Source: a virus. Taken from it: a stretch of 38,946 nt of DNA. Of the stretch, positions 6,759-38,208 are shown piece by piece. The stretch covers positions 1-38,946 of the IMG/VR virus record IMGVR_UViG_3300042935_000982, one strand, 5' to 3'. The position numbers and the translations under genes are program-made. The notes beneath the pieces were generated by a model, which was not told the origin of the DNA, did no database searches, and worked only from the letters and a program-made list of their open reading frames with translations. Within the stretch, counting starts at the first letter, position 1. Every line of letters begins with the position of its first letter.

Positions 6759-8699
6759 TTAGCTTGTAATATCTACAATTTCACAAGATCCAGCTACACA
6801 ACTTAATTCTTGACTACCAGTTGTACCATCGGTTGTTTCATATAAAGAAAGCATTTCCCACTTAATTGAATCTGGCATCTTGTTTAAATATGATTCATAT
6901 TCTTCTTTAGAAATCTCTTGATATGGAGCTTGCTTATAAGAATGCTCTGTTGATGGAAGAAAAGATACTCCACCAATTGAATCAAAGTTATCAAATACCC
7001 AAGCACCAACACGCATCCATTCATCCTCTTCAACATTAACAGTAACACTTGGATTATGCTCTGTCCAATGAGTTCTGTATGTTTTCCACATTTCAAGATG
7101 ATCAATTGCAGTTAAGTCTTTAGTAAGAACTGCATTCTTTGGAGCCTTAATTGGAAAATAAAATACAGTTGTAAGTTCTGGCTTCATTACATCTGGTTCA
7201 AATGGAATTCCAGAATCCTTTAGGAATTGTGTTAGGGGATCTTTATTATCTGCTCTAACACTTCTAATGTAATATTCTGAATACCACGGATGAATTCCAG
7301 AAGATACCCCTGTGAGCTGTGAGACTGTTCCTGAGGGCTTTACACAGGTAATTGATACTGATGGGTTAATGTTTAAAGACTTAGCCTCTTTATCATTTAC
7401 TGAAACAGATAGATCTCTCATCTCATCAAGAAGTGATTCAAGAGCCTTCCCATTTGTAGCAGTAATTTTATTTCCATAGATACCTGTCAAAGATACGCCA
7501 AGAAGTCTTTCTTCTTCACAATTGTCTTTCCAAGTTTTTCTAATGTACTTAAAATTAGTTAAAGTTGATTGCCAAGTTCCAAGAATTGTCGCAAGTCTAA
7601 CTTTTTCAAGAAGAGTTTCTTTTGTATCAGCTGAATCAATTACAACTTCAGTTAAATTACAAAACTCATTTGGACGAAGAAGAATCTCTCCACAAGGATT
7701 TGTACCACCAACAAGACTTGAGTCTCTACGACCAAACTTATCAATGTGCTTACGAACAGAATCAATATTATAAATTCCACGTTCGCCAGACTTTGATTCA
7801 TACAGATTTCTCCACTCACGAAGGAACTGTGCAGTATTTGGCTTTGAATTATATACAGCAGAATTGTTTGCCAATGCTCTTTGACCATTGCCTTCCCACC
7901 ATTGACCACTCTTTGCTTTTGCCATTTCAAAATCGTCTAGATTAGAAAGTGAAATCAAAGCACTTCTACGAACTCCTCCAACAACAACAACTTCTCCAAT
8001 CTTACACATTAGGTCGTGTGCCTCAATTGACTTTAATCGTCTTCCTGATGCAAACTTAAATGTTTCAATTGTAAAATTAAACAAATCTACCAAAGGAGCT
8101 GGACCAGATGCTCTTCCACCAAACACTTTTAGTCTTGCTCCAGCAGGACGAACCTTTGATACATCCCAGTTTGGAATTTGACCTTGACAAAGAAGTGCAA
8201 TCAACTCTTTGTAAGCTTTTGCCCATCCAAGTTTTGAATCGTCAACAACAATTGTTGTATCTGTTTGAAAGAATGATTCTGAAATAATTGGTAGTTGATT
8301 AATATATTTTTGTTCAACACTAAAACCAACTCCAGTTCCGTTCATAAGGATGTACATAGCCTCATCAAAGGCTCTAGGATTGTCTACAGCGATGAACGAG
8401 CAATTGTAGGCTGCAATGTGGTCTCTTTCTAAAGCAGGTCCAGCGGTCATCAGTGCCCTCATAGATGGCATTATGTGATGATGCAAGATTGCTTCTCTAA
8501 CTTCATTAAAAACTTTTGCATTTGGACTATAGCCGTGATTTAGTACAAGATGGTCTCGCATAAAGTTACAATATCTGTCAACTGTTTCCTCCCACGTTTC
8601 TCTACGGTTTTCGCTTTCAATCCAACGAGCGTACCTTGAAATATGAATAAAATTGCGATATGGATCTGTTATAGATCCGTTGGAGTCAATAAATGACAT
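6759..8699 (-). CDS. nrdJ: Class II (adenosylcobalamin-dependent) ribonucleotide reductase
   Basis: 646 residues, similar in plan to the monomeric Lactobacillus RTPR. It reduces ribonucleotides to deoxyribonucleotides using B12 as radical generator. Key residues are visible: a redox Cys near 100 (AAYNCSF), the NPCGE motif with the thiyl-radical Cys near 336 and Glu near 338, the partner Cys 11 residues later (EFCNLTE), and a C-terminal CVAGSC pair (about 634/639) that re-reduces the active site. The start at MSFID is preceded by AGAAGGA; a TTG start 19 codons upstream is possible. It lies between tail and lysis-like genes, an odd place for a metabolic gene. Confidence 0.92.
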   Translation of the reverse strand: MSFIDSNGSITDPYRNFIHISRYARWIESENRRETWEETVDRYCNFMRDHLVLNHGYSPNAKVFNEVREAILHHHIMPSMRALMTAGPALERDHIAAYNCSFIAVDNPRAFDEAMYILMNGTGVGFSVEQKYINQLPIISESFFQTDTTIVVDDSKLGWAKAYKELIALLCQGQIPNWDVSKVRPAGARLKVFGGRASGPAPLVDLFNFTIETFKFASGRRLKSIEAHDLMCKIGEVVVVGGVRRSALISLSNLDDFEMAKAKSGQWWEGNGQRALANNSAVYNSKPNTAQFLREWRNLYESKSGERGIYNIDSVRKHIDKFGRRDSSLVGGTNPCGEILLRPNEFCNLTEVVIDSADTKETLLEKVRLATILGTWQSTLTNFKYIRKTWKDNCEEERLLGVSLTGIYGNKITATNGKALESLLDEMRDLSVSVNDKEAKSLNINPSVSITCVKPSGTVSQLTGVSSGIHPWYSEYYIRSVRADNKDPLTQFLKDSGIPFEPDVMKPELTTVFYFPIKAPKNAVLTKDLTAIDHLEMWKTYRTHWTEHNPSVTVNVEEDEWMRVGAWVFDNFDSIGGVSFLPSTEHSYKQAPYQEISKEEYESYLNKMPDSIKWEMLSLYETTDGTTGSQELSCVAGSCEIVDITS

Positions 8700-8766
8700 T
8701 GTGTAACACGTCCTTCTGATAAAATGGGAATAGTTATATTCTACACGAGTATTCAAGGAGAAGCAA

Positions 8767-30316: not shown

Positions 30317-30338
30317 AACTTAGCAGAAAACACCGACA
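30317..30338 (-). promoter_or_regulatory. Degenerate TGTC-type promoter (minus-strand copy)
   Basis: Reading leftward: TGTCGGTGT, 7 nt ending TGC, TAAGTT. It has the same 16-nt phasing as the 13 plus-strand copies but only the first five bases of the TGTCAGACC block are close. It drives the gene at 30284. Confidence 0.5.
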
Positions 30339-30389
30339 AAAGCAAGCCAGAAACGCCTTTTTTAGGTGAACATTTGGTGAACAATAATT

Positions 30390-30520
30390 CACAGGTTATC
30401 CACAGGATCCAGGCTGCGCCCCGTTGTCCACAGGTTATCCACAGCCTGTTAAGAAGATGTTAATAAGTCCCCATATTCTGTGTATAAGTTGTGTATAACT
30501 ACTATGATTTGTGTGTATAA
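30390..30520. other. DnaA-box cluster, candidate replication origin
   Basis: Plus-strand boxes: TTATCCACA at 30396-30404 and 30435-30443, TTGTCCACA at 30424-30432. Minus-strand boxes (read as TGTGTATAA on plus): 30479-30487, 30490-30498, 30512-30520. All fit the consensus TT(A/G)TNCACA. The whole lies between divergent promoters in the 420-nt gene-free gap 30285-30705. A shared 16-bp unit (CACAGGTTATCCACAG) occurs twice, 39 bp apart. Confidence 0.65.
30413..30422 (+). repeat. GCTGCGCCCC element, copy 1
   Basis: A GC-rich 10-mer, part of a 19-bp stretch (30405-30423) that recurs inverted at 36635-36653. Other copies or near copies: 32115 (CCTGCGCCCC), 33093 (ends CCCT), 34371, 35421, 36636 (minus), 38106. 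Confidence 0.65.
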
Positions 30521-30589
30521 GTTGTGGATTGTTGTTAACCTATTGTTCATCTATTGTTCATCTTACTACCCCCCGAAATGGGGCAAAAT

Positions 30590-30611
30590 TGTCAGACCCC
30601 TCTGCTAAGAT
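30590..30611 (+). promoter_or_regulatory. TGTCAGACC promoter 1
   Basis: TGTCAGACC, CCTCTGC, TAAGAT. First rightward promoter after the DnaA-box region; drives the gene at 30706 through a leader of about 88 nt. Confidence 0.8.
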
Positions 30612-30633
30612 GAAATCATAAAGCAGTTGAGAA

Positions 30634-30676
30634 TGAGCCTAGCAAATAATCCCGCAAGGGTGAGCCTAGCAAATAA
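30634..30676 (+). promoter_or_regulatory. Leader RNA element: repeats around a GNRA hairpin
   Basis: Within the leader from promoter 1, TGAGCCTAGCAAATAA occurs at 30634-30649 and 30661-30676, flanking CCC-GCAA-GGG (30651-30660), a small stem with a GNRA tetraloop. No other leader here has this. Confidence 0.5.
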
Positions 30677-30705
30677 GTCTTAACACAAACGAAAGGTAAA
30701 CCAAA

Positions 30706-30855
30706 ATGGCTTACACTAAAATAAAAAATGCAAGACTGCTAGTAGATGCAGTCAATGGCTTAGAGTTAATCCTCAAGCACGACCCAACCAATCAACGAAT
30801 GATTGACTACTACAATCTACAAATAAAACTTTTGACTAGGCGTGTCTACGGGTAA
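30706..30855 (+). CDS. Hypothetical small protein
   Basis: 49 residues, basic and helical (ARLLVDAVNGLELILKHDP, ending LLTRRVYG). Not recognised. ACGAAAGG lies 8 nt before the ATG. First rightward gene; the next promoter begins 4 nt after its stop. Confidence 0.6.
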   Translation: MAYTKIKNARLLVDAVNGLELILKHDPTNQRMIDYYNLQIKLLTRRVYG

Positions 30856-30858
30856 AAC

Positions 30859-30880
30859 TGTCAGACCTCTATGCTAAGAT
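30859..30880 (+). promoter_or_regulatory. TGTCAGACC promoter 2
   Basis: TGTCAGACC, TCTATGC, TAAGAT, just after the stop at 30855; drives 30912 and 31121. Confidence 0.8.
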
Positions 30881-30911
30881 AAAACTAATAAACAAACGAA
30901 AGGTGAGCCAA

Positions 30912-31121
30912 ATGACTTACACTCTAATAATGGAAGAAGTGACTACCCCAGCAGGTAACACATTCTTCAACAGCATTCGCTACTATGACGAATGCGAGAT
31001 TTGCCAATCTGCTATGGCTAAAGGTGAGATGCCTTTCATCTCTCACGATAACTGCCTATACAAGGGTAAGCGTATCGTAGGTCACTCTCTTGCACATTGT
31101 ACCGCAGGGAGTTGCTACTAA
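30912..31121 (+). CDS. Hypothetical Cys/His protein
   Basis: 69 residues. CEICQ near residue 29 and AHCTAGSC near the end, with DNC between, could bind zinc. The ATG at 30912 is favoured (AAAGG 9 nt upstream); a GTG three codons earlier overlaps that site. Its stop overlaps the next ATG by one base. Confidence 0.62.
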   Translation: MTYTLIMEEVTTPAGNTFFNSIRYYDECEICQSAMAKGEMPFISHDNCLYKGKRIVGHSLAHCTAGSCY

Positions 31122-31252
31122 TGAACATCTGTCAAAACTGTGATGAATGGTCAGAGTGGAAAACCTGCCCTGCCTGTGATGAATCTATCTGTGGCTATTG
31201 TATCTACTATGTAGAGCAAGACCTAGCCAACTGTGACAACTACGGTCACTAA
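31121..31252 (+). CDS. Zinc-ribbon microprotein
   Basis: 43 residues with three CxxC pairs: ICQNCDEW, TCPACDES, ICGYC, plus a late Cys. This is a compact zinc-binding fold, RING- or ribbon-like in spacing, but too short for a firm call. Starts in a TAATG overlap with the preceding gene; a promoter follows its stop by 3 nt. Confidence 0.65.
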   Translation: MNICQNCDEWSEWKTCPACDESICGYCIYYVEQDLANCDNYGH

Positions 31253-31255
31253 AAC

Positions 31256-31277
31256 TGTCAGACCTCTATGGTAAGAT
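31256..31277 (+). promoter_or_regulatory. TGTCAGACC promoter 3
   Basis: TGTCAGACC, TCTATGG, TAAGAT; heads the five-gene run 31309-32077. Confidence 0.8.
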
Positions 31278-31308
31278 AAAACTAACAAACAAACGAAAGG
31301 TGGTCAAA

Positions 31309-31524
31309 ATGACTACACTAAATACAAGAGAGTTTATAGACTCTTACAATGCACTAAACAAGGCAAAGCACCCACTTAGCCACACCTCTAGTTCTGGCTA
31401 TGTAGCATTAGCAACAATTCTAGAAATCTCAATTAACTGGAAAATGGGTATCAACCAAATCCAAGAAAGTCTAGATGAAAAGACTAACCAATGGAAAAAC
31501 GAATTAGAAAGTTTGGTGAAATAA
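31309..31524 (+). CDS. Hypothetical protein
   Basis: 71 residues (MTTLNTREFIDSYNALNKAK at the start). Helical, with a Ser/Thr-rich loop and a middle helix (YVALATILEISINWKMGINQ). Not recognised. AAAGG lies 8-9 nt before the ATG. First of five closely spaced genes. Confidence 0.6.
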   Translation: MTTLNTREFIDSYNALNKAKHPLSHTSSSGYVALATILEISINWKMGINQIQESLDEKTNQWKNELESLVK

Positions 31525-31692
31525 ATGAAAGACTTAATCTTAATTGCACTAATCGCAGGTAGTAGTTTTGGCTTACTATTTGCATACATTCAACAGATGA
31601 TGAACAAGGATAACTACATTGCAGAATTGCAACACGCTTTGGTTGAAGCATACACAGAACTAGAACTAAAGAACTTAGGGGTGATGAAATAA
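31525..31692 (+). CDS. Small N-terminally anchored membrane protein
   Basis: 55 residues: one membrane helix (LILIALIAGSSFGLLFAYI, about 4-22) then a charged helix (YIAELQHALVEAYTELELKN), probably cytoplasmic. It starts directly after the previous stop. The layout resembles small phage anchor or i-spanin-like proteins; function unknown. Confidence 0.6.
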   Translation: MKDLILIALIAGSSFGLLFAYIQQMMNKDNYIAELQHALVEAYTELELKNLGVMK

Positions 31693-31859
31693 TGATGACA
31701 CGAAAAGACTATGTAAAAATTGCAGAAATTCTAAATGCTTATCACCTAGACATTGAAGCACAAGTTTTCAAGGATTTGCTTTCAGACTTTCAAACTTTCT
31801 TCAAAAGAGATAATCCTAACTTTGACAAAACACGATTTGAAAATGCGGTGATGAAATAA
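31692..31859 (+). CDS. Small phage protein with DNPxFDxxRF motif
   Basis: 55 residues (or 54 from the adjacent second ATG). MTRKDYVKIAEILN at the start and FFKRDNPNFDKTRFENA near the end; the latter motif is frequent in small proteins of actinobacteriophages, with no known function. Coupled to both neighbours (TAATG overlaps). Confidence 0.65.
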   Translation: MMTRKDYVKIAEILNAYHLDIEAQVFKDLLSDFQTFFKRDNPNFDKTRFENAVMK

Positions 31860-32011
31860 TGAAATTCGTACATAATAAAATTGACGGAACTTTTATTCTT
31901 GGAATTAGTTTCTCTAACTACTACAATAAAAAAACAGAAACCAAAAATTCTTCCCTGATTTTTGATTTAGGAAAACATTCGTTTGCGTTTGTGTTGCGTG
32001 GTGAGTACTAA
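31859..32011 (+). CDS. Hypothetical small protein
   Basis: 50 residues, beta-rich (MKFVHNKIDGTFILGISFSN, then SLIFDLGKHSFAFVLRGEY). Not recognised. ATG overlaps the preceding stop (TAATG). Confidence 0.55.
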   Translation: MKFVHNKIDGTFILGISFSNYYNKKTETKNSSLIFDLGKHSFAFVLRGEY

Positions 32012-32077
32012 ATGGAAGCAGTTTTAATTCTTGTTGCCACTCTAGTTTTAATTTTAATTTGGAGTTTTACAGATTAG
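32012..32077 (+). CDS. 21-aa membrane microprotein
   Basis: A short frame, MEAVLILVATLVLILIWSFTD, which is a single membrane helix. It starts directly after the previous stop in the same coupled string, which supports translation, but its size leaves real doubt. Confidence 0.45.
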   Translation: MEAVLILVATLVLILIWSFTD

Positions 32078-32083
32078 AAAATT

Positions 32084-32114
32084 TCCTGGTTTGCTTTTTG
32101 CATTCCAGGATTTT
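32084..32114 (+). terminator. Weak terminator-like hairpin
   Basis: TCCTGG (32084-32089), a 15-nt loop, CCAGGA (32105-32110), then TTTT, directly after the last gene of the 31309-32077 operon. Confidence 0.4.
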
Positions 32115-32189
32115 CCTGCGCCCCGTTTTCCACAGCTTATCCACAGATCGTTAAGAAGGTGTGGATAAGTCCCCAAATCCTGTGGATTA
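32115..32189. repeat. Second DnaA-box module, diverged copy of the origin-like region
   Basis: CCTGCGCCCC, then TTTTCCACA (32126-32134), TTATCCACA (32137-32145), minus-strand TTATCCACA (32160-32168) and a one-mismatch box (32181-32189). It shares GTTAAGAAG and TAAGTCCCCA blocks, in the same order, with 30449-30480. A single further box lies at 33102-33110. Confidence 0.6.
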
Positions 32190-32235
32190 TTGTTCACCCA
32201 AAGTTAACCTAAAACACGCCCTGAAATACCAAAAT

Positions 32236-32257
32236 TGTCAGACCCCTGTGGTAAGTT
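32236..32257 (+). promoter_or_regulatory. TGTCAGACC promoter 4
   Basis: TGTCAGACC, CCTGTGG, TAAGTT; drives 32284 and 32418. Confidence 0.75.
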
Positions 32258-32283
32258 TATCTTATAAAGAAATGAGGATTCCA

Positions 32284-32418
32284 ATGACTGAATTAGCCTT
32301 TGAGAATGTAACTAAACTTAAGTGTTTAGAGTGTGGTGACAAATTAACACCTTGGGAAAATACCCTTTGCATAATTTGTGCACCTGATGAATTTGAATTA
32401 GATGAGGAGTGGAACTAA
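32284..32418 (+). CDS. MTELAFEN zinc-ribbon microprotein (copy 2)
   Basis: 44 residues: KCLECGDKLTPWENTLCIICAPDEFEL. The four Cys and most other positions match the minus-strand copy at 30153-30284. GAGG lies 7 nt before the ATG. The upstream DNA (an ATTATTGTTCACC block) is also shared with copy 1, so gene and control region were duplicated together in inverted orientation. Its stop overlaps the next ATG. Confidence 0.75.
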   Translation: MTELAFENVTKLKCLECGDKLTPWENTLCIICAPDEFELDEEWN

Positions 32419-32609
32419 TGAGAGTCTATGAAATTGCTAAGGAACTTAGTATTCCTTCAAAAGATGTCAGAATGTATTTAGAGTACATTGGACAACCTGC
32501 TAAAAGTGCATCGTCAAGTGTTGAAGATGTATTTGCTGAAGTCGTTATACACCGCATTAACGAGACTTTCAAGGACTTCGTGCCTTATTGGGTGCAACCA
32601 CCATTCTAA
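32418..32609 (+). CDS. Stand-alone IF2 N-terminal-like domain protein
   Basis: 63 residues. MRVYEIAKELSIPSKDVRMY followed by LEYIGQPAKSASSSVEDVFAE closely follows the IF2-N domain (PF04760) found at the start of bacterial translation initiation factor IF-2: the (R)VYELAKEL helix, the SxK helix start, the K-S-x-SSS turn and a final helix. No GTPase domain follows. A phage could use it to act on the ribosome or IF-2, or as a nucleic-acid binding helix bundle; this is inference. Coupled to the zinc-ribbon gene (TAATG). Confidence 0.75.
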   Translation: MRVYEIAKELSIPSKDVRMYLEYIGQPAKSASSSVEDVFAEVVIHRINETFKDFVPYWVQPPF

Positions 32610-32612
32610 AAC

Positions 32613-32634
32613 TGTCAGACCTATCTGATAGAAT
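32613..32634 (+). promoter_or_regulatory. TGTCAGACC promoter 5
   Basis: TGTCAGACC, TATCTGA, TAGAAT, directly after the stop at 32609; drives 32667. Confidence 0.78.
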
Positions 32635-32666
32635 AAACAAACAACCTACTAGAAATGAGAAATAAA

Positions 32667-32972
32667 ATGGGACTAATGACTTCACTCGCAATTGGCGAAT
32701 TAGAAATGACAATAGAAGATCAGATCGGTATTCACTTGCGATCAAACTTCTATCCACCAATTCCACTTTCAATGGTACAGCCTTGCGTTGATGCAATTAA
32801 TGCTTACTGGAATGAAGACATTGATGCTGAAATTGAAATGCCAGAGGGCGTTTATTATCGTGGTAGTAATCTTGCACCTGCTCACGCAATTGTTGAGCAA
32901 CACCGATTAGATCCTTGGGTGATGCAAGACGATGACTACTATGAAGAATATGAGTATCAGGATATGGAGTAA
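32667..32972 (+). CDS. Hypothetical acidic protein
   Basis: 101 residues: MGLMTSLAIGELEMTIEDQIG at the start, VYYRGSNLAPAHAIVEQHRLDPW in the middle, then a very acidic Asp/Glu/Tyr tail (DDDYYEEYEYQDME). Not recognised. The start is chosen at ATG 32667, with GAGAA upstream; ATGs 4 codons before and 3 after are possible. The acidic tail could suggest nucleic-acid mimicry, but that is speculative. Confidence 0.6.
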   Translation: MGLMTSLAIGELEMTIEDQIGIHLRSNFYPPIPLSMVQPCVDAINAYWNEDIDAEIEMPEGVYYRGSNLAPAHAIVEQHRLDPWVMQDDDYYEEYEYQDME

Positions 32973-33087
32973 AAAATTGTTTGAGATAATTCTCTTAATA
33001 ATTTTTGCACCATTCATAATAATTCCGTTGTTAGGATTCATAATTGGAGTAATGACTTCTAACGATGACGGCGACCCTCACTGGTGA
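32950..33087 (+). CDS. Small membrane protein overlapping upstream gene
   Basis: 45 residues, overlapping the previous gene's end by 23 nt in another frame. A hydrophobic stretch of about 25 residues (LFEIILLIIFAPFIIIPLLG) is followed by a short DDGDPHW tail. GAAGA precedes the ATG. Function unknown. Confidence 0.5.
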   Translation: MSIRIWSKKLFEIILLIIFAPFIIIPLLGFIIGVMTSNDDGDPHW

Positions 33088-33167
33088 GGCGAGCTGCGCC
33101 CTGTGGATAACTTTGTTACCTGATTGTTATTAAGTTAATTAAGAAACACCCCCAAAATACCCAAAAA

Positions 33168-33189
33168 TGTCAGACCTCTGTGATAGATT
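33168..33189 (+). promoter_or_regulatory. TGTCAGACC promoter 6
   Basis: TGTCAGACC, TCTGTGA, TAGATT. The -10 box ends only 6 nt before the ATG at 33196, so this transcript is probably leaderless, unlike the others. Confidence 0.75.
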
Positions 33190-33195
33190 TGTTTT

Positions 33196-33336
33196 ATGAA
33201 ACAAAGTGAGAATTACAAACTACCTGCAAGCCCCGAACAGTTGAGGGCTAGACTTGAGTTGCGTAGGAGTAATGCAGCCGTACCTCACAGAAATAAAAAG
33301 GCTTACACACGAAAGACTAAGCACAAGGAATGGTAA
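33196..33336 (+). CDS. Small basic protein
   Basis: 46 residues, rich in Arg and Lys (EQLRARLELRRSNAAVPHRNK, ending TRKTKHKEW). Likely binds nucleic acid or RNA. No ribosome binding site; the promoter -10 lies 6 nt upstream, so it would be read from a leaderless mRNA. The next promoter begins 4 nt after its stop. Confidence 0.55.
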   Translation: MKQSENYKLPASPEQLRARLELRRSNAAVPHRNKKAYTRKTKHKEW

Positions 33337-33339
33337 AAA

Positions 33340-33361
33340 TGTCAGACCTCTGTGATAAGAT
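33340..33361 (+). promoter_or_regulatory. TGTCAGACC promoter 7
   Basis: TGTCAGACC, TCTGTGA, TAAGAT; heads the five-gene run 33392-34364. Confidence 0.8.
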
Positions 33362-33391
33362 AAATCTATACCTACAAACGAAAGGAACACT

Positions 33392-33631
33392 ATGTTCACT
33401 CTCCACAATCCAATGAAAGTGATGAACGAACGCTATGTCGTTACCTCACACCCTTGCCCAACTTGCAACGAAACCAAAACAGTTTCAATCTCATCAGATA
33501 AGTTATTTGCATACAATCAAGGTGCTTATGCCCAAACAGTTTTGTCAGACTATGATGCAGACATTCGTGAAAGATTCATTTCTGGAATGTGTGGCATTTG
33601 CTGGGATTCAATGTTTGGAGATGATGAATAA
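33392..33631 (+). CDS. Conserved phage zinc-binding protein
   Basis: 79 residues: HPCPTCNETKTVSI near the start, LFAYNQGAYAQ in the middle and ERFISGMCGICWDSMFG near the end. The two CxxC pairs should bind zinc. I recognise this pattern from small actinobacteriophage proteins of unknown function. AAAGGAACACT precedes the ATG. Stop overlaps the next ATG. Confidence 0.68.
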   Translation: MFTLHNPMKVMNERYVVTSHPCPTCNETKTVSISSDKLFAYNQGAYAQTVLSDYDADIRERFISGMCGICWDSMFGDDE

Positions 33632-33747
33632 TGAGTGAACTACTAATAAACCTATTTGAGGGTGTTATAGATGAAAAGGCAATTGAGAAATTGTCTACCG
33701 AAGAATTGCAAGCAATTGAAAAAATGTTAAAGGAAGCAGGTTACTAA
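33631..33747 (+). CDS. 38-aa helical protein
   Basis: MSELLINLFEGVIDEKAIEK then LSTEELQAIEKMLKEAGY, probably a helical hairpin. Begins in a TAATG overlap with the preceding gene and ends one base before the next ATG, which supports translation. Function unknown. Confidence 0.55.
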   Translation: MSELLINLFEGVIDEKAIEKLSTEELQAIEKMLKEAGY

Positions 33748-33748
33748 A

Positions 33749-34090
33749 ATGGGTGCAAGAATTAATTTCGTATTTGATGACGGAACAGATAGTCTAGTTA
33801 ATCTTTATTCACATTGGGGTGAATCTAGTTGGCAAGATGATTTAGTTGGTGCGTTAATACACGCACAACCACGCAAGGGTGATACCTCATACTTTACTCG
33901 TATGGTTATCTCACATCTAATGAAAGACTATGTGTTAGATGAAACTGGTTTTGGTATCTATGCAATTAACCGTTCAGAAATTGGCAACCAATCATTTGAC
34001 AAGACAGTTGTATTAGATTTAGTAAACAATCTACTTACCGATTTAGATGACGGTAGCACTATTGATTTGTATGGAAAGGTATTTGCATAA
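33749..34090 (+). CDS. Conserved phage protein (MGARINFVFDDG type)
   Basis: 113 residues starting MGARINFVFDDGTDSLVNLYSHWGESSWQ, with KGDTSYFTRMVISHLMKD in the middle. I have seen this sequence style in small actinobacteriophage proteins, always without function. Coupled at both ends (one-base gap before, TAATG overlap after). Confidence 0.65.
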   Translation: MGARINFVFDDGTDSLVNLYSHWGESSWQDDLVGALIHAQPRKGDTSYFTRMVISHLMKDYVLDETGFGIYAINRSEIGNQSFDKTVVLDLVNNLLTDLDDGSTIDLYGKVFA

Positions 34091-34239
34091 TGAGTCAAAT
34101 GAAAGATTTGTATGGTATTTTAACAGAGTGGTATCCAGACGGAAACTACACAGAGCAACAATTGTGGGAAGCAATTGCAGAATCACAAGGTATGGACTAT
34201 TCAGAAATTGCAGATGGAGATTTAGCAGAATGGCTATAA
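34090..34239 (+). CDS. Hypothetical acidic small protein
   Basis: 49 residues: MSQMKDLYGILTEWYPDGNY, ending SEIADGDLAEWL. Helical and acidic, not recognised. ATG overlaps the previous stop; its own 3' end overlaps the next gene by 10 nt. Confidence 0.58.
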   Translation: MSQMKDLYGILTEWYPDGNYTEQQLWEAIAESQGMDYSEIADGDLAEWL

Positions 34240-34364
34240 AACTATTTAATCGCAAACCAGAATTAACAGAAGATGAAATATTTGCTAAGTTAGATTTACT
34301 AATGGGGAAGATGTCTTCTATTGATATTTATATTGAATACCTTGAACTAAGGGAAGGGATGTAG
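34230..34364 (+). CDS. Hypothetical small protein
   Basis: 44 residues: MAIKLFNRKPELTEDEIFAK, then a helix ending IYIEYLELREGM. GGAG lies 10 nt before the ATG, inside the previous gene. Ends the operon; a terminator overlaps its stop codon. Confidence 0.58.
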   Translation: MAIKLFNRKPELTEDEIFAKLDLLMGKMSSIDIYIEYLELREGM

Positions 34365-34385
34365 GGGCGAGCTGCGCCCCATTTT
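34364..34385 (+). terminator. Terminator formed by the GCTGCGCCCC element
   Basis: GGGGCG, loop AGCTG, CGCCCC, then ATTTT. Here the recurring GC-rich element is the 3' half of a perfect 6-bp stem, suggesting that it terminates the upstream operon. Confidence 0.6.
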
Positions 34386-34472
34386 GATCCATTTGTCAAG
34401 TATTTACGATGTGATTAAGGACACACCGAAAAGTGTCCACATAGTGAGATTATGGGGTGTCGGATTTGGAAA

Positions 34473-34494
34473 TGTCAGACCTTTCTGGTATAGT
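34473..34494 (+). promoter_or_regulatory. TGTCAGACC promoter 8
   Basis: TGTCAGACC, TTTCTGG, TATAGT; drives 34543. Confidence 0.78.
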
Positions 34495-34542
34495 ATTACT
34501 ATAACAACAAGGGAACAATCCCACAAAAGAAAAGAGAAGCAA

Positions 34543-34701
34543 ATGGCAAAAATCACAGCCCCAACTGTTGGCTCACAGTTCACCACAGCAAAGAGCAAGG
34601 TTACTGGCGAAGTTCAGGAAGTAGTCAAGAACGCAAACGGTTCATACCGAGTTCGTCTTGATGTAAACGGAGAGCCACGCTGGACTACTTTAACTAAGTA
34701 G
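34543..34701 (+). CDS. Conserved small phage protein
   Basis: 52 residues: MAKITAPTVGSQFTTAKSKV, GEVQEVVKNANGSYRVRLDV, ending GEPRWTTLTK. Beta-rich, basic; reads like a single small beta-barrel. Seen in style in other actinobacteriophages, function unknown. GAGAAG precedes the ATG. Single-gene transcript: the next promoter follows. Confidence 0.65.
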   Translation: MAKITAPTVGSQFTTAKSKVTGEVQEVVKNANGSYRVRLDVNGEPRWTTLTK

Positions 34702-34727
34702 TTTTAGTTAGGGGGTCTGGCTAAAAC

Positions 34728-34749
34728 TGTCAGACCCCTATGCTAAGAT
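34728..34749 (+). promoter_or_regulatory. TGTCAGACC promoter 9
   Basis: TGTCAGACC, CCTATGC, TAAGAT; drives 34782. Confidence 0.8.
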
Positions 34750-34781
34750 TACTTTATACCTACAAAAGAATGGAGTCCCCA

Positions 34782-35258
34782 ATGGGCTTAGATATGTACC
34801 TTCGTGCAAGTGAATATGTGTACCGTCACAACTTTAATCGTCAGACGGATGAGGACACAATTAACCCTGTGTTTAATGAAATTGTTAAGCATCTTGAATT
34901 AGAAGATGTAATTGACAAAACTGGTTTTGCTGGCATCTCTGTTGATGTACCAATGGGTTACTGGCGTAAATCAAACATGATTCATCATTGGTTTGTAAAT
35001 AACTTAGCAGATGGTGTTGATGAATGTCAGCCAATCACAGTTCGTAGAGAAGACCTAGAGCAGTTGAAAGAAACCTGCATTGAAGTAATTGCTAATCCAG
35101 AAAGTGCGGAAGAATTATTGCCAACAGGTAGTGGATTCTTTTTTGGTTCTACTGACTATGATAAGTATTACTTTGGAGATTTGAACGACACTATTGGTAT
35201 CATCACTAGATGCCTTGATAGCAAGTTCGACTATTTTGAGTATCAAGCCTCTTGGTAA
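34782..35258 (+). CDS. Conserved phage protein (MGLDMYL type)
   Basis: 158 residues starting MGLDMYLRASEYVYRHNF, with MGYWRKSNMIHHWFVNNLADG in the middle and GSGFFFGSTDYDKYYFGDLNDT near the end. Proteins with this MGLDMYL opening and GFFFGST block are frequent in phages and bacteria, with no known function. GGAG lies 6 nt before the ATG; the frame is open 14 codons further upstream, but that would overlap the promoter region. Confidence 0.65.
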   Translation: MGLDMYLRASEYVYRHNFNRQTDEDTINPVFNEIVKHLELEDVIDKTGFAGISVDVPMGYWRKSNMIHHWFVNNLADGVDECQPITVRREDLEQLKETCIEVIANPESAEELLPTGSGFFFGSTDYDKYYFGDLNDTIGIITRCLDSKFDYFEYQASW

Positions 35259-35342
35259 GATAACTCAATTAATTAAAAGGTAGCCAATACCGCCAGGTTG
35301 TTGGTGATTGAATGATAGAGATCTAAATCCTGGCACACCTTT

Positions 35343-35419
35343 GGTCTGGTGGCTCAGTTGGTTAGAGCACCGCCCTGTCACGGCGGAGGTCGTGGGTTCA
35401 AGTCCCATCCAGATCGCCA
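35343..35419 (+). tRNA. tRNA-Asp (anticodon GTC), CCA encoded
   Basis: Full cloverleaf: acceptor GGTCTGG/CCAGATC (one G-U pair), D arm with GGCTCAGTTGGTTAGAGC, anticodon stem CCGCC/GGCGG with loop CTGTCAC (anticodon GTC), T arm GTGGG-TTCAAGT-CCCAT, discriminator G, then an encoded CCA. It lies alone between the gene ending at 35258 and a GCTGCGCCCC element that starts 2 nt after the CCA. Confidence 0.95.
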
Positions 35420-35494
35420 AGCTGCGCCCCGTTATCAAATCGTTATATAAAGCTATTAAGAGACACAAATATATCTGCCAGTTTAACTTGAAAT

Positions 35495-35516
35495 TGTCAG
35501 ACCCTTGTGCTAAGAT
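35495..35516 (+). promoter_or_regulatory. TGTCAGACC promoter 10
   Basis: TGTCAGACC, CTTGTGC, TAAGAT; drives the DUF932 gene at 35550. Confidence 0.8.
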
Positions 35517-35549
35517 AAGACTATTAAACAAACAAACAAAGGAAACAAA

Positions 35550-36539
35550 ATGGCAGATGCAGTAGAAATTATAAACGGTGTTGGCTCTATGTATTCATTT
35601 CGTGAACCTGCTTGGCATGGTTTAGGAACTGTTGTTACAGAAGAACACACTACAAGTGAAGTTATGGACATAGCACACTTATCAAATTGGAATGTTCGTC
35701 TTGAAGATGTTCAACTACCTGAGGATTACACATCAAGCAAATCTAACTTTCTTGTTGTTCGTGACCACCCAGAAGATGGACACCCAGATGTTCTAGCAGT
35801 TGTTGGTGAGCGATACCAGACTTTACAGAATGAAGAACTATTTGCTTTTGCAGATAATCTTCTTGACGGTGCTCGTTGGGAAACTGCTGGCTCATTAAAA
35901 GATGGTCGTGTTGTATTTGGTTCTCTTGCTCTTGAGCGTGAAACCGTACTTGACCCTGATGGTGTAGCAGATGTTGTGAAGTCTTACTTACTTGTAAACA
36001 CATCACACGATGGTTCTCTTGCTGTTCGTGCATCAGTAACACCTGTTCGTGTTGTGTGTGCAAATACTCTTGACCTTGCTCTTCGTGGTGTTAAGCAGTC
36101 TTTCAAAATGCGACACACATCAACACTTGAGGGTCGTATCTTAGTTGCTCGTGAAGCATTGGGTCTTGCCAATACTTACATGGACGAATTCGACAAGATG
36201 GCTCAAGAACTTATTCAAAAGGAAATCACAAAAGATACTTTTAATAAGATTGTTGAAATGGCTTACCCAATGCCAAAGCAAGATGCAAAGGGTGCTATGA
36301 CCAAGTGGGAAACCAAAATTGATTTGCTAGATGAGATTTTTGCATCAGACACAAACTCAATGATTAACAATACTGCTTGGGGTGCTTTTAACACATTGAC
36401 TGAAAGACTTGACTGGTATCGCTCTGCCCGTAATGGCAACAACGAGGGAATCCTTGCAAGTGCATCAGGCTTTGACCCAGTTATCACAGCAGAAAAAAAT
36501 AAGTTGCTTTCCATTGTAAAGGAAATCGCTTTCGCCTAG
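35550..36539 (+). CDS. DUF932 / TIGR03299 phage-plasmid protein
   Basis: 329 residues. PAWHGLGTVV near residue 20, LVVRDHPEDGHPDVLAVVGERY near 70-90, then a beta region and TPVRVVCANTLDLALRG near 165-180 followed by helices. This is the DUF932 (phage/plasmid-like TIGR03299) pattern, at the usual length. The family is common on phages and plasmids; the role is not established to my knowledge. AAAGGAAAC precedes the ATG. Alone in its transcript, followed by a structured 3' region. Confidence 0.88.
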   Translation: MADAVEIINGVGSMYSFREPAWHGLGTVVTEEHTTSEVMDIAHLSNWNVRLEDVQLPEDYTSSKSNFLVVRDHPEDGHPDVLAVVGERYQTLQNEELFAFADNLLDGARWETAGSLKDGRVVFGSLALERETVLDPDGVADVVKSYLLVNTSHDGSLAVRASVTPVRVVCANTLDLALRGVKQSFKMRHTSTLEGRILVAREALGLANTYMDEFDKMAQELIQKEITKDTFNKIVEMAYPMPKQDAKGAMTKWETKIDLLDEIFASDTNSMINNTAWGAFNTLTERLDWYRSARNGNNEGILASASGFDPVITAEKNKLLSIVKEIAFA

Positions 36540-36603
36540 TAAGACAAAATCCGAACGGTAGGAAACTCTCAGTTACACAGAGTATAAATAAGGGTAGCAC
36601 GGT

Positions 36604-36653
36604 CCTGAGCATGACCACTAAACTGCTCCCTCTTCGGGGCGCAGCCTGGATCC
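36604..36653 (+). repeat. 3' element A (with inverted GC-rich repeat)
   Basis: CTGAGCATGACC...TAAACTGCTCCC, containing a GAGCA/TGCTC inverted repeat, is closely matched at 38073-38100. It is followed by CGGGGCGCAGCCTGGATCC (36635-36653), the exact reverse complement of 30405-30423. Both elements lie after the stop of the gene ending at 36539. Confidence 0.6.
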
Positions 36654-36699
36654 CAGCTCCTCGTTTACGATTAAGGTGGGGTAGAAATACCCCCAAAAT

Positions 36700-36721
36700 T
36701 GTCAGACCTCTGTGGTATGAT
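36700..36721 (+). promoter_or_regulatory. TGTCAGACC promoter 11
   Basis: TGTCAGACC, TCTGTGG, TATGAT; drives 36753. Confidence 0.8.
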
Positions 36722-36752
36722 GAAATCATAACCTACTAAGAAAAGAGATAAA

Positions 36753-37526
36753 ATGCCAAACTGGGTATTTAATAGTCTAGTTGTATCTGGCGAACAGTCA
36801 GAATTAGATAAGATGGTTGAGCAATTAAATCAACCTTTTGAAAAACATTTCCCTGATTCAAAGTTTAATCAAGAAACAAAAGTATGGGAAAAATTTCCAG
36901 ATGTTCAAGTCTATGACAATCCTGTCTTTGCATTTTGGAACATTGTAAAACCAACAGACCTTGAAACATACTATGGTGAAGAAGTGTTTAAGAAAGAAAC
37001 TCTTGCCCCTGAAGATTTTATGGCAGAGTTTGTTCGCTCTATGAGAGAAGACCAAGACTGGTATCATTGGAACTGCCGTAACTGGGGAACTAAATGGGAC
37101 ATTGGTGTTGTCAATGGTGACGAGTATCCTAACACTATTAAAACAGTTAATGATGATGGTTCTATTATGTATCACTTTGAAACCGCTTGGTCTCCTGTTG
37201 GTGAGGTTCTAATGAAACTATCAGAGATGTATCCAACACTTAACTTTGACTATGAGTATGAAGAAGAGACTGGTTGGGGTGGTGCTTGCACATTCTTAGG
37301 TGGAGAAGACATTGCCTGTGATGAGTATGACTCCCCAATGTCACACTCTGACTACAAGGAACGAGATAAAGAATGTATCTGTGAGTATGGAGACCCTGAA
37401 AACGGCTATGAAGATTGCCCTATAGATACTACTAAATTCAAGTGGGATTCAGAACTAGAGGAATGGGTAGAATTGTCAGACCTCTCTGATACACTAGTTT
37501 CAACAACCAACCTACAAGGAGAATAA
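36753..37526 (+). CDS. YubB/DUF1281-like protein, ferredoxin-like fold
   Basis: 257 residues. MPNWVFNSLVVSGEQSELDKM at the start and YHWNCRNWGTKWDIGVV near 110, then FETAWSPVGEVL near 150, match the YubB-type ferredoxin-like (DUF1281/Api92) domain found on phages and plasmids; function unknown. The C-terminal third is acidic with a Cys cluster (CICEYGDPENGYEDCP). GAAAAGAGA precedes the ATG. The last codons (VELSDLSDTLVS) are also promoter 12 for the next gene, so this 3' end is under two constraints. Confidence 0.8.
   Translation: MPNWVFNSLVVSGEQSELDKMVEQLNQPFEKHFPDSKFNQETKVWEKFPDVQVYDNPVFAFWNIVKPTDLETYYGEEVFKKETLAPEDFMAEFVRSMREDQDWYHWNCRNWGTKWDIGVVNGDEYPNTIKTVNDDGSIMYHFETAWSPVGEVLMKLSEMYPTLNFDYEYEEETGWGGACTFLGGEDIACDEYDSPMSHSDYKERDKECICEYGDPENGYEDCPIDTTKFKWDSELEEWVELSDLSDTLVSTTNLQGE
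37474..37495 (+). promoter_or_regulatory. TGTCAGACC promoter 12 (inside a coding region)
   Basis: TGTCAGACC, TCTCTGA, TACACT, located within the last 18 codons of the gene ending at 37526; drives 37528. Confidence 0.72.
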
Positions 37527-37527
37527 A

Positions 37528-38049
37528 ATGGATTTCCCAATCCCAGCAAGTATAACACCAATGCCAGAATCAAATGCAACATTCGTTAAAGAATTCGTAG
37601 AGGCAGGAGAACTAAAGCCTATCTATGACCCAAAGGCAACTATCGTTGTCCGAAAAGGTTACTACTACGGTACACCATCAGATTCAAAGTTTGAACTAGA
37701 AAATGCAGACGACATCTCAAGAGCGTTTTGGAGAGTAGATGCACTAACAGAAACTAACCAAAGAAACTCACGAGCATACGACAAGGTTAAAGATTATCTT
37801 GTTGAGAACTACGATGAGATTGGTGAAGAACACGCAACTGAAATTGCAAACATTCTTAGCATTGACTTGTCTAAAGAAATTGAAGTTGAGTTCAATGTAA
37901 CAATCAAGGCAACTGTCTCAATGCCTGTCAATGAAGATGTGTCTGACTTAAGCATCTATGACTTTGACATCACAATTGAATCAAATGAATCTAAGTATGA
38001 GATTTTAGAATCTGATGCAGACATTGATTCGATAGATGAAAGATACTAG
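37528..38049 (+). CDS. Hypothetical acidic protein
   Basis: 173 residues: MDFPIPASITPMPESNATFV at the start, a VVRKGYYYGTPSDSKFELEN region, then an acidic beta-rich C-terminal half (IEVEFNVTIKATVSMPVNED). Not recognised. AAGGAG lies 6 nt before the ATG, only one base after the previous stop. Confidence 0.62.
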   Translation: MDFPIPASITPMPESNATFVKEFVEAGELKPIYDPKATIVVRKGYYYGTPSDSKFELENADDISRAFWRVDALTETNQRNSRAYDKVKDYLVENYDEIGEEHATEIANILSIDLSKEIEVEFNVTIKATVSMPVNEDVSDLSIYDFDITIESNESKYEILESDADIDSIDERY

Positions 38050-38050
38050 G

Positions 38051-38100
38051 TTTCCTAGTAGGTAGGAAAAGTGCTGAGCATCACAATAAACTGCTCCCCT
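38051..38100 (+). terminator. 3' hairpin and element A, second copy
   Basis: TTTCCTA, loop GTAGG, TAGGAAA (38051-38069) is a perfect 7-bp hairpin one base after the stop at 38049. It is followed by CTGAGCATCAC...TAAACTGCTCCC, matching 36604-36630. No U-tract; possible terminator or mRNA-stabilising 3' end. Confidence 0.5.
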
Positions 38101-38186
38101 CTCAAGCTGCGCCCCCCATTTAATAAGTCTATTAGTCTTAGGATAGGATTAAGAAGACACCAAAATATCCCCAAGCCGTGCAAAAA

Positions 38187-38208
38187 TGTCAGACCTCTGT
38201 GGTAGGAT
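38187..38208 (+). promoter_or_regulatory. TGTCAGACC promoter 13
   Basis: TGTCAGACC, TCTGTGG, TAGGAT; heads the run starting at 38238. A GCTGCGCCCC element lies upstream at 38106. Confidence 0.8.

Follow-up and report, generated by a model that had tools for sequence, protein, structure and literature searches.

A predicted array of PafBC-type promoters in the early arm of an actinophage genome fragment

The early arm of the lake phage DNA investigated here carries 14 units that match, in sequence and spacing, the promoters of the actinobacterial activator PafBC, the structure of whose complex has already been solved. The window, i.e. the whole stretch of 38,946 nucleotides that was analysed, is a fragment of a larger genome; its relatives reach 94-101 kb. 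We interpret the 14 units as PafBC-type promoters (with a probability of about 0.86), at which host RNA polymerase with SigA and host PafBC would start transcription of the early arm without any phage protein; binding, activation and trigger are predictions from the sequence.

The 13 plus-strand copies of TGTCAGACC listed in a preliminary description of this DNA were all confirmed, lying between 30590 and 38195 (Table 1), against 0.18 expected by shuffling (largest count 3). Each belongs to an exact TGTCAGACC-N7-TAnnnT unit, found on the plus strand only and within 30590-38208, and behind every one of these units lies a gene of the early arm, which runs rightward. In all 13 plus copies TAnnnT follows at exactly 16 nt from the T of TGTC, and it is preceded by TGn, which makes it an extended -10; the fixed phase described earlier was thus borne out. 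The pattern TGTCRG-N10-TAnnnT gave 14 matches in the window, namely the 13 plus-strand units and one on the minus strand at 30338, as compared with a mean of 0.69 and a maximum of 3 in first-order Markov sequences, and it gave none in the other 30 kb of the 38.9-kb window. An even spread of the motif over the genome and over both strands, which had been named as evidence against a promoter role, was the contrary of what was found, no site of the window lying outside 30317-38208.

Table 1. Predicted promoter units and DnaA boxes, in window coordinates
Feature	Position	Strand	Downstream gene or remarks
PafBC-type promoter 1, TGTCAGACC-N7-TAAGAT	30590..30611	+	gene 30706-30855
PafBC-type promoter 2	30859..30880	+	ORF 30903-31121
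PafBC-type promoter 3	31256..31277	+	ORF 31300-31524
PafBC-type promoter 4	32236..32257	+	ORF ending 32418 (MTELAFENV...)
PafBC-type promoter 5	32613..32634	+	ORF 32655-32972
PafBC-type promoter 6	33168..33189	+	ORF 33196-33336
PafBC-type promoter 7	33340..33361	+	ORF 33392-33631
PafBC-type promoter 8	34473..34494	+	gene MAKITAPTV..., end 34701
PafBC-type promoter 9	34728..34749	+	gene MGLDMYLRA..., end 35258
PafBC-type promoter 10	35495..35516	+	DUF932 gene 35550-36539; near -35 TTGAAA
PafBC-type promoter 11	36700..36721	+	gene 36753-37526 (DUF1281_C)
PafBC-type promoter 12	37474..37495	+	within end of preceding gene; ORF 37528-38049
PafBC-type promoter 13	38187..38208	+	gene ending 38408 (MIDTTDPLL...)
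PafBC-type promoter 14, TGTCGGTG-N8-TAAGTT	30317..30338	-	minus-strand gene ending 30153 (MTELAYENI...)
DnaA-box 9-mers upstream of promoter 1	30396..30443, within 30396-30520		TTATCCACA at 30396 and 30435, TTGTCCACA at 30424
DnaA-box 9-mers upstream of promoter 4	32137..32168
DnaA-box 9-mer upstream of promoter 6	33102..33110	-

The minus-strand unit (TGTCGGTGTTTTCTGCTAAGTT) has the same geometry as the plus copies. It had been regarded as degenerate, which proved to be wrong: its reading TGTCGGTG-N8-TAAGTT is the canonical published form of the motif, and in several relatives the minus copy reads TGTCRGTGG. The gene behind it is a paralogue of the gene behind promoter 4. The core TGTC[A/G]G was present in 14 of 14 window sites (the invariant core of PafBC, or RecA-NDp, promoters is TGTCR), and in all 14 the distance from TGTCRgtg to TAnnnT is 8 nt. 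After TGTCR, the minus copy and most of the related phages show 'gtg' and the 13 plus copies 'gac'; in the plus copies, ACC stands in place of the weak gtg of the mycobacterial consensus. The best matches to TTGACA in the window units were no better than those at random positions, except at 35495, the sole copy with a near -35 (TTGAAA at 17 nt), so that the earlier placement of the box within the -35/-10 spacer, with no standard -35, holds with this one exception. An ordinary sigma-70 promoter was rejected, since no TTGACA-like hexamer occurs beyond chance 16-18 nt before the -10, again except at 35495.

The array had also been likened to the stoperators of mycobacteriophage L5, which are repeated, oriented, short sites as well. 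Stoperators are bound by a phage repressor, also away from promoters. A set of repressor operators of this type would agree with many identical co-oriented sites in one phage, but the L5 sites have another sequence, every window copy keeps the fixed distance of 16 nt to the extended -10 of a gene start, the copies are confined to the early arm, and the window showed no candidate for a repressor. Membership in the L5 class was therefore rejected, and an operator or stoperator set is extremely unlikely. The preliminary description had recognised no regulator in the window, with which we agree.

Other features of the window were also recorded. A tRNA-Asp gene (gtc) at 35343-35419 lies in the early arm, directly before promoter 10. 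A 66-aa ORF with an IF2_N domain (E 5.5e-09) occupies 32409-32609, which is unusual as a free-standing phage protein, and a ribonucleotide reductase gene (phrog_367) at 6759-8756 on the minus strand sits in the structural arm.

The '-26 element' of the actinobacterial RecA-independent DNA-damage promoters (RecA-NDp / PafBC) has the consensus tTGTCRgtg - 8 nt - TAnnnT (PMC5656591), and the window unit, when written as TGTCAGAC-N8-TAnnnT, is equal to it, with identical spacing. In M. smegmatis, uninduced reporters with intact P1 were halved without pafBC (PMC5656591). ClgR, the Clp regulator, was reported on the same P1/RecA-NDp motif (Wang 2011, to the extent that it is cited in PMC5656591), and it, or another host factor, might read the box in place of PafBC. 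Later structures, however, put PafB directly on the -26 motif and PafC on SigA domain 4 (PMC11804915), and the activity of recA P1 is gone without pafBC (PMC5656591), which makes a reader of that kind very unlikely. With PafB sitting at -26 and PafC touching SigA domain 4, PafBC would explain why the box lies within the spacer and why a -35 is absent.

Similar units were found in actinobacterial chromosomes. TGTCAGACC-N7-TAnnnT occurred in 149 of 395 genomes of the class to which IMCC19121, a freshwater acI bacterium, belongs, with up to 14 per genome, as compared with about 10 genomes for the reversed control. The genes behind these promoters encode UvrB (three), RecA, UvrA (three), RadA, DnaE (three), a dGTPase and a RecB-like nuclease; one of each was named by NCBIfam and the rest by matching starts. 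The three UvrB starts lie 6 nt after the -10. TGTCAGACC, i.e. the ACC form, is also the sequence at native recA, uvrA and uvrB promoters within the class. Many large actinomycete genomes (8-11 Mb) carry 5-14 TGTCAGACC-N7-TAnnnT each, with uvrA and dnaE downstream in the loci that were read. For such large-genome actinomycetes, a lack of conservation of the mycobacterial motif has been reported (PMC9380542); the TGTCAGACC form is likely to be their native variant of the PafBC motif, and a search for TGTCRGTG would miss a regulon using it.

In the order of IMCC19121, TGTCRGTGG-N7-TAnnnT was present in 94 of 101 genomes, and promoters of the canonical form were found, among others, at DnaE2-like genes, next to a likely SOS box. 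The recA gene of IMCC19121 shows TGTCAGTGCCGCCTGCTACCTT followed by the SOS-box-like tcgaacagatgttc, a PafBC-type promoter with an SOS-like box that resembles the P1/P2 pair of mycobacterial recA. The ACC form in this order amounted to 24 sites versus 11 in the control, about a twofold excess, with several of the sites within one repeated element. This Nanopelagicales element, ctagtaa(t/a)TGTCAGACC(c/a)(c/a)ATCCCTA(a/c)TAT..tcaagatc, was observed at loci L431, L436, L441, L443, L444, L445, L449, L451 and L452; it resembles the end of a mobile element and inflates the TGTCAGACC counts there. A scan of genome contigs with the canonical motif gave mostly chance matches and one acI genome.

The portal protein (51%), the ribonucleotide reductase (63%) and the DUF932 protein (54%) of the window are closest to those of Streptomyces Stanwilliamsviridae, indicating that the phage is an actinophage. 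Its host would accordingly be an actinobacterium, and PafB and PafC were read in IMCC19121, which represents a candidate group. IMCC19121 encodes adjacent WYL proteins identified as PafB (PDB 6sj9, E 5e-43; 9fnd, 1e-37) and PafC (6sj9, 4e-23), neighboured by a tRNA-methyltransferase-like gene and a tatC-like gene, both named from sequence. The PafB recognition helix RMFERDK, with both of the arginines named in PMC6789036, R44 and R48, is identical in IMCC19121 and Arthrobacter. Each of the 101 genomes sampled from the order has WYL proteins, in most cases as an adjacent pair. No genome with an exact match to the phage tRNA-Asp was found; it is 88% identical over 70 nt to the tRNA-Asp of IMCC19121, a value not decisive for the host.

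The preliminary description had also suggested that related phages be scanned for the motif, and this revealed one-strand arrays in dozens of freshwater phage contigs. When viral contigs were scanned for the ACC form, at least 120 loci were obtained (L009-L128 listed). Five or more units were present in 62 of the 120 listed loci, and 553 of 570 units lay on the main strand of their locus. TGTCRG stood exactly 10 nt before TAnnnT 439 times in the 120 listed loci, versus 4 to 95 times at other spacings, the ACC copies used to find the loci being left out of this count. The consensus in these loci was wTGTCAGTGG. Fifty whole phage records contained up to 18 copies of the pattern each, versus 0-3 in the reversed control; a minority showed only one or two copies, which may be due to chance. 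WhiB, an actinobacterial marker, was encoded in 16 of the 50 records, and a WYL domain in none. When relatives of the DUF932 protein were picked by protein and not by motif, the array was present in most of the 26 loci. In a 99.6-kb relative, 10 of 11 sites lie in the last 10 kb, and longer relatives confine the array to one arm. Judging from these arrays, many other freshwater phages probably use PafBC-type early promoters likewise. In the literature searched, which did not extend to subscription papers, no report joining PafBC with phage promoters was found.

A phage activator or sigma factor encoded outside the 39-kb fragment might read the box and merely share the PafBC site. Its gene could be missing from a fragment of this size, Nanopelagicales phages that have been isolated carry genes for WhiB and a sigma-70 factor (PMC10202952), and the 16 records with WhiB point in the same direction. 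Nevertheless, the same unit upstream of chromosomal repair genes must be read by a host factor, none of the 50 records has a WYL protein, and early genes need transcription before phage proteins exist, so that a phage-encoded reader is very unlikely. The host activator is the likeliest reader, because the box matches the PafBC promoter and the same unit stands at chromosomal DNA-repair genes. Of the modes of control first considered, that by a single trans-acting factor dedicated to the early arm was therefore retained, whereas a phage sigma factor and a repressor operator were rejected.

CRP-type sites were analysed upstream of 548 non-redundant phage promoters from the listed loci L009-L128 and L293-L318. 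GTGA-N6-TCAC was found upstream of 197 of these 548, with 37 sites expected from the overall contig density, while palindromes with a spacer other than 6 numbered only 0-2. The centres lie at about -64, -74 and -84 from the predicted start, which is the geometry of class I CRP activation, with 10.5-bp phasing (R 0.70; null 95% 0.175). This helical phasing is independent evidence that the units are true promoters, and it supports composite PafBC and CRP promoters in the related loci. HTH_Crp_2 proteins were present in all five genomes checked from the order of IMCC19121. No CRP-type site was found in the early arm of the window. Exact DnaA boxes (TTATCCACA) in the listed related loci lay within 150 bp upstream of promoters in 147 of 175 cases (33 expected), clustering at 50-150 bp, and the 50-bp bins to 150 bp downstream were empty. 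This clustering is conserved among relatives. The boxes showed no helical phasing to the promoters, and DnaA is therefore not claimed as a classical activator; an origin, DnaA titration or regulation are possible roles.

According to the proposed mechanism, host polymerase with the housekeeping sigma factor would find no -35 at the window units. Host PafBC would be switched on by ssDNA bound by its WYL domains, as the PafBC promoter complex requires bound ssDNA (PMC11804915), and at TGTCAG (about -26) it would bridge to sigma region 4 and recruit polymerase to the extended -10. The ssDNA signal could come from phage DNA as it enters or replicates, and basal PafBC activity may suffice at first. 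The mode would be sigma adaptation by a host activator, and the extended -10 might also permit some PafBC-independent transcription. On balance, we favour the broader view that the early programme of freshwater actinophages runs on global regulators of the host, with PafBC promoters, often a phased CRP site and DnaA boxes, an ssDNA signal from infection itself and no phage regulator.

If this is true, a damage sensor of the host serves as the start switch of the phage. LexA/SOS is known as the signal on which prophages leave; in the present case, phages that look lytic appear to enter on a programme run by the second damage response of actinobacteria. For phages of the most abundant lake bacteria this would be a specific way of starting that can be put to the test, and a host that has lost pafBC is predicted to be protected. 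The array could also serve as a sequence marker for assigning hosts to metagenomic actinophages.

Among known systems, the Streptomyces phage Yaboi (Stanwilliamsviridae) has homologous DUF932 genes in its early/terminal-repeat region, but its promoters lack the -26 box and show a TTGC or TTGA -35 with a TAGACT -10. No array was present in any of ten stretches taken from nine cultured actinophages, and short-query BLAST searches for the promoter in named phages gave chance matches only. As the box or array is missing from the Streptomyces relatives and the cultured actinophages, the freshwater lineages appear to have exchanged one promoter type for another. The PafBC (RecA-NDp, P1) promoters of mycobacteria and other actinobacteria share with the window units the TGTCRG core, the 8 nt to TAnnnT and the lack of a -35, and PafB and PafC are present in candidate hosts. 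The chromosomal promoters, however, are scattered at repair genes such as recA, uvrA and uvrB, while those of the window are phage-borne, with 14 copies in less than 8 kb at phage early genes; also, ACC replaces the weak gtg in the window and the -10 is always extended. The middle promoters of phage T4, with a MotA box near -30 and an extended -10, are a known case of sigma appropriation. There, too, the -35 is replaced by an activator box within the usual spacer, and the activator makes contact with sigma region 4, but T4 brings its own MotA and AsiA, whereas the window phage most likely relies on host PafBC, and for early genes.
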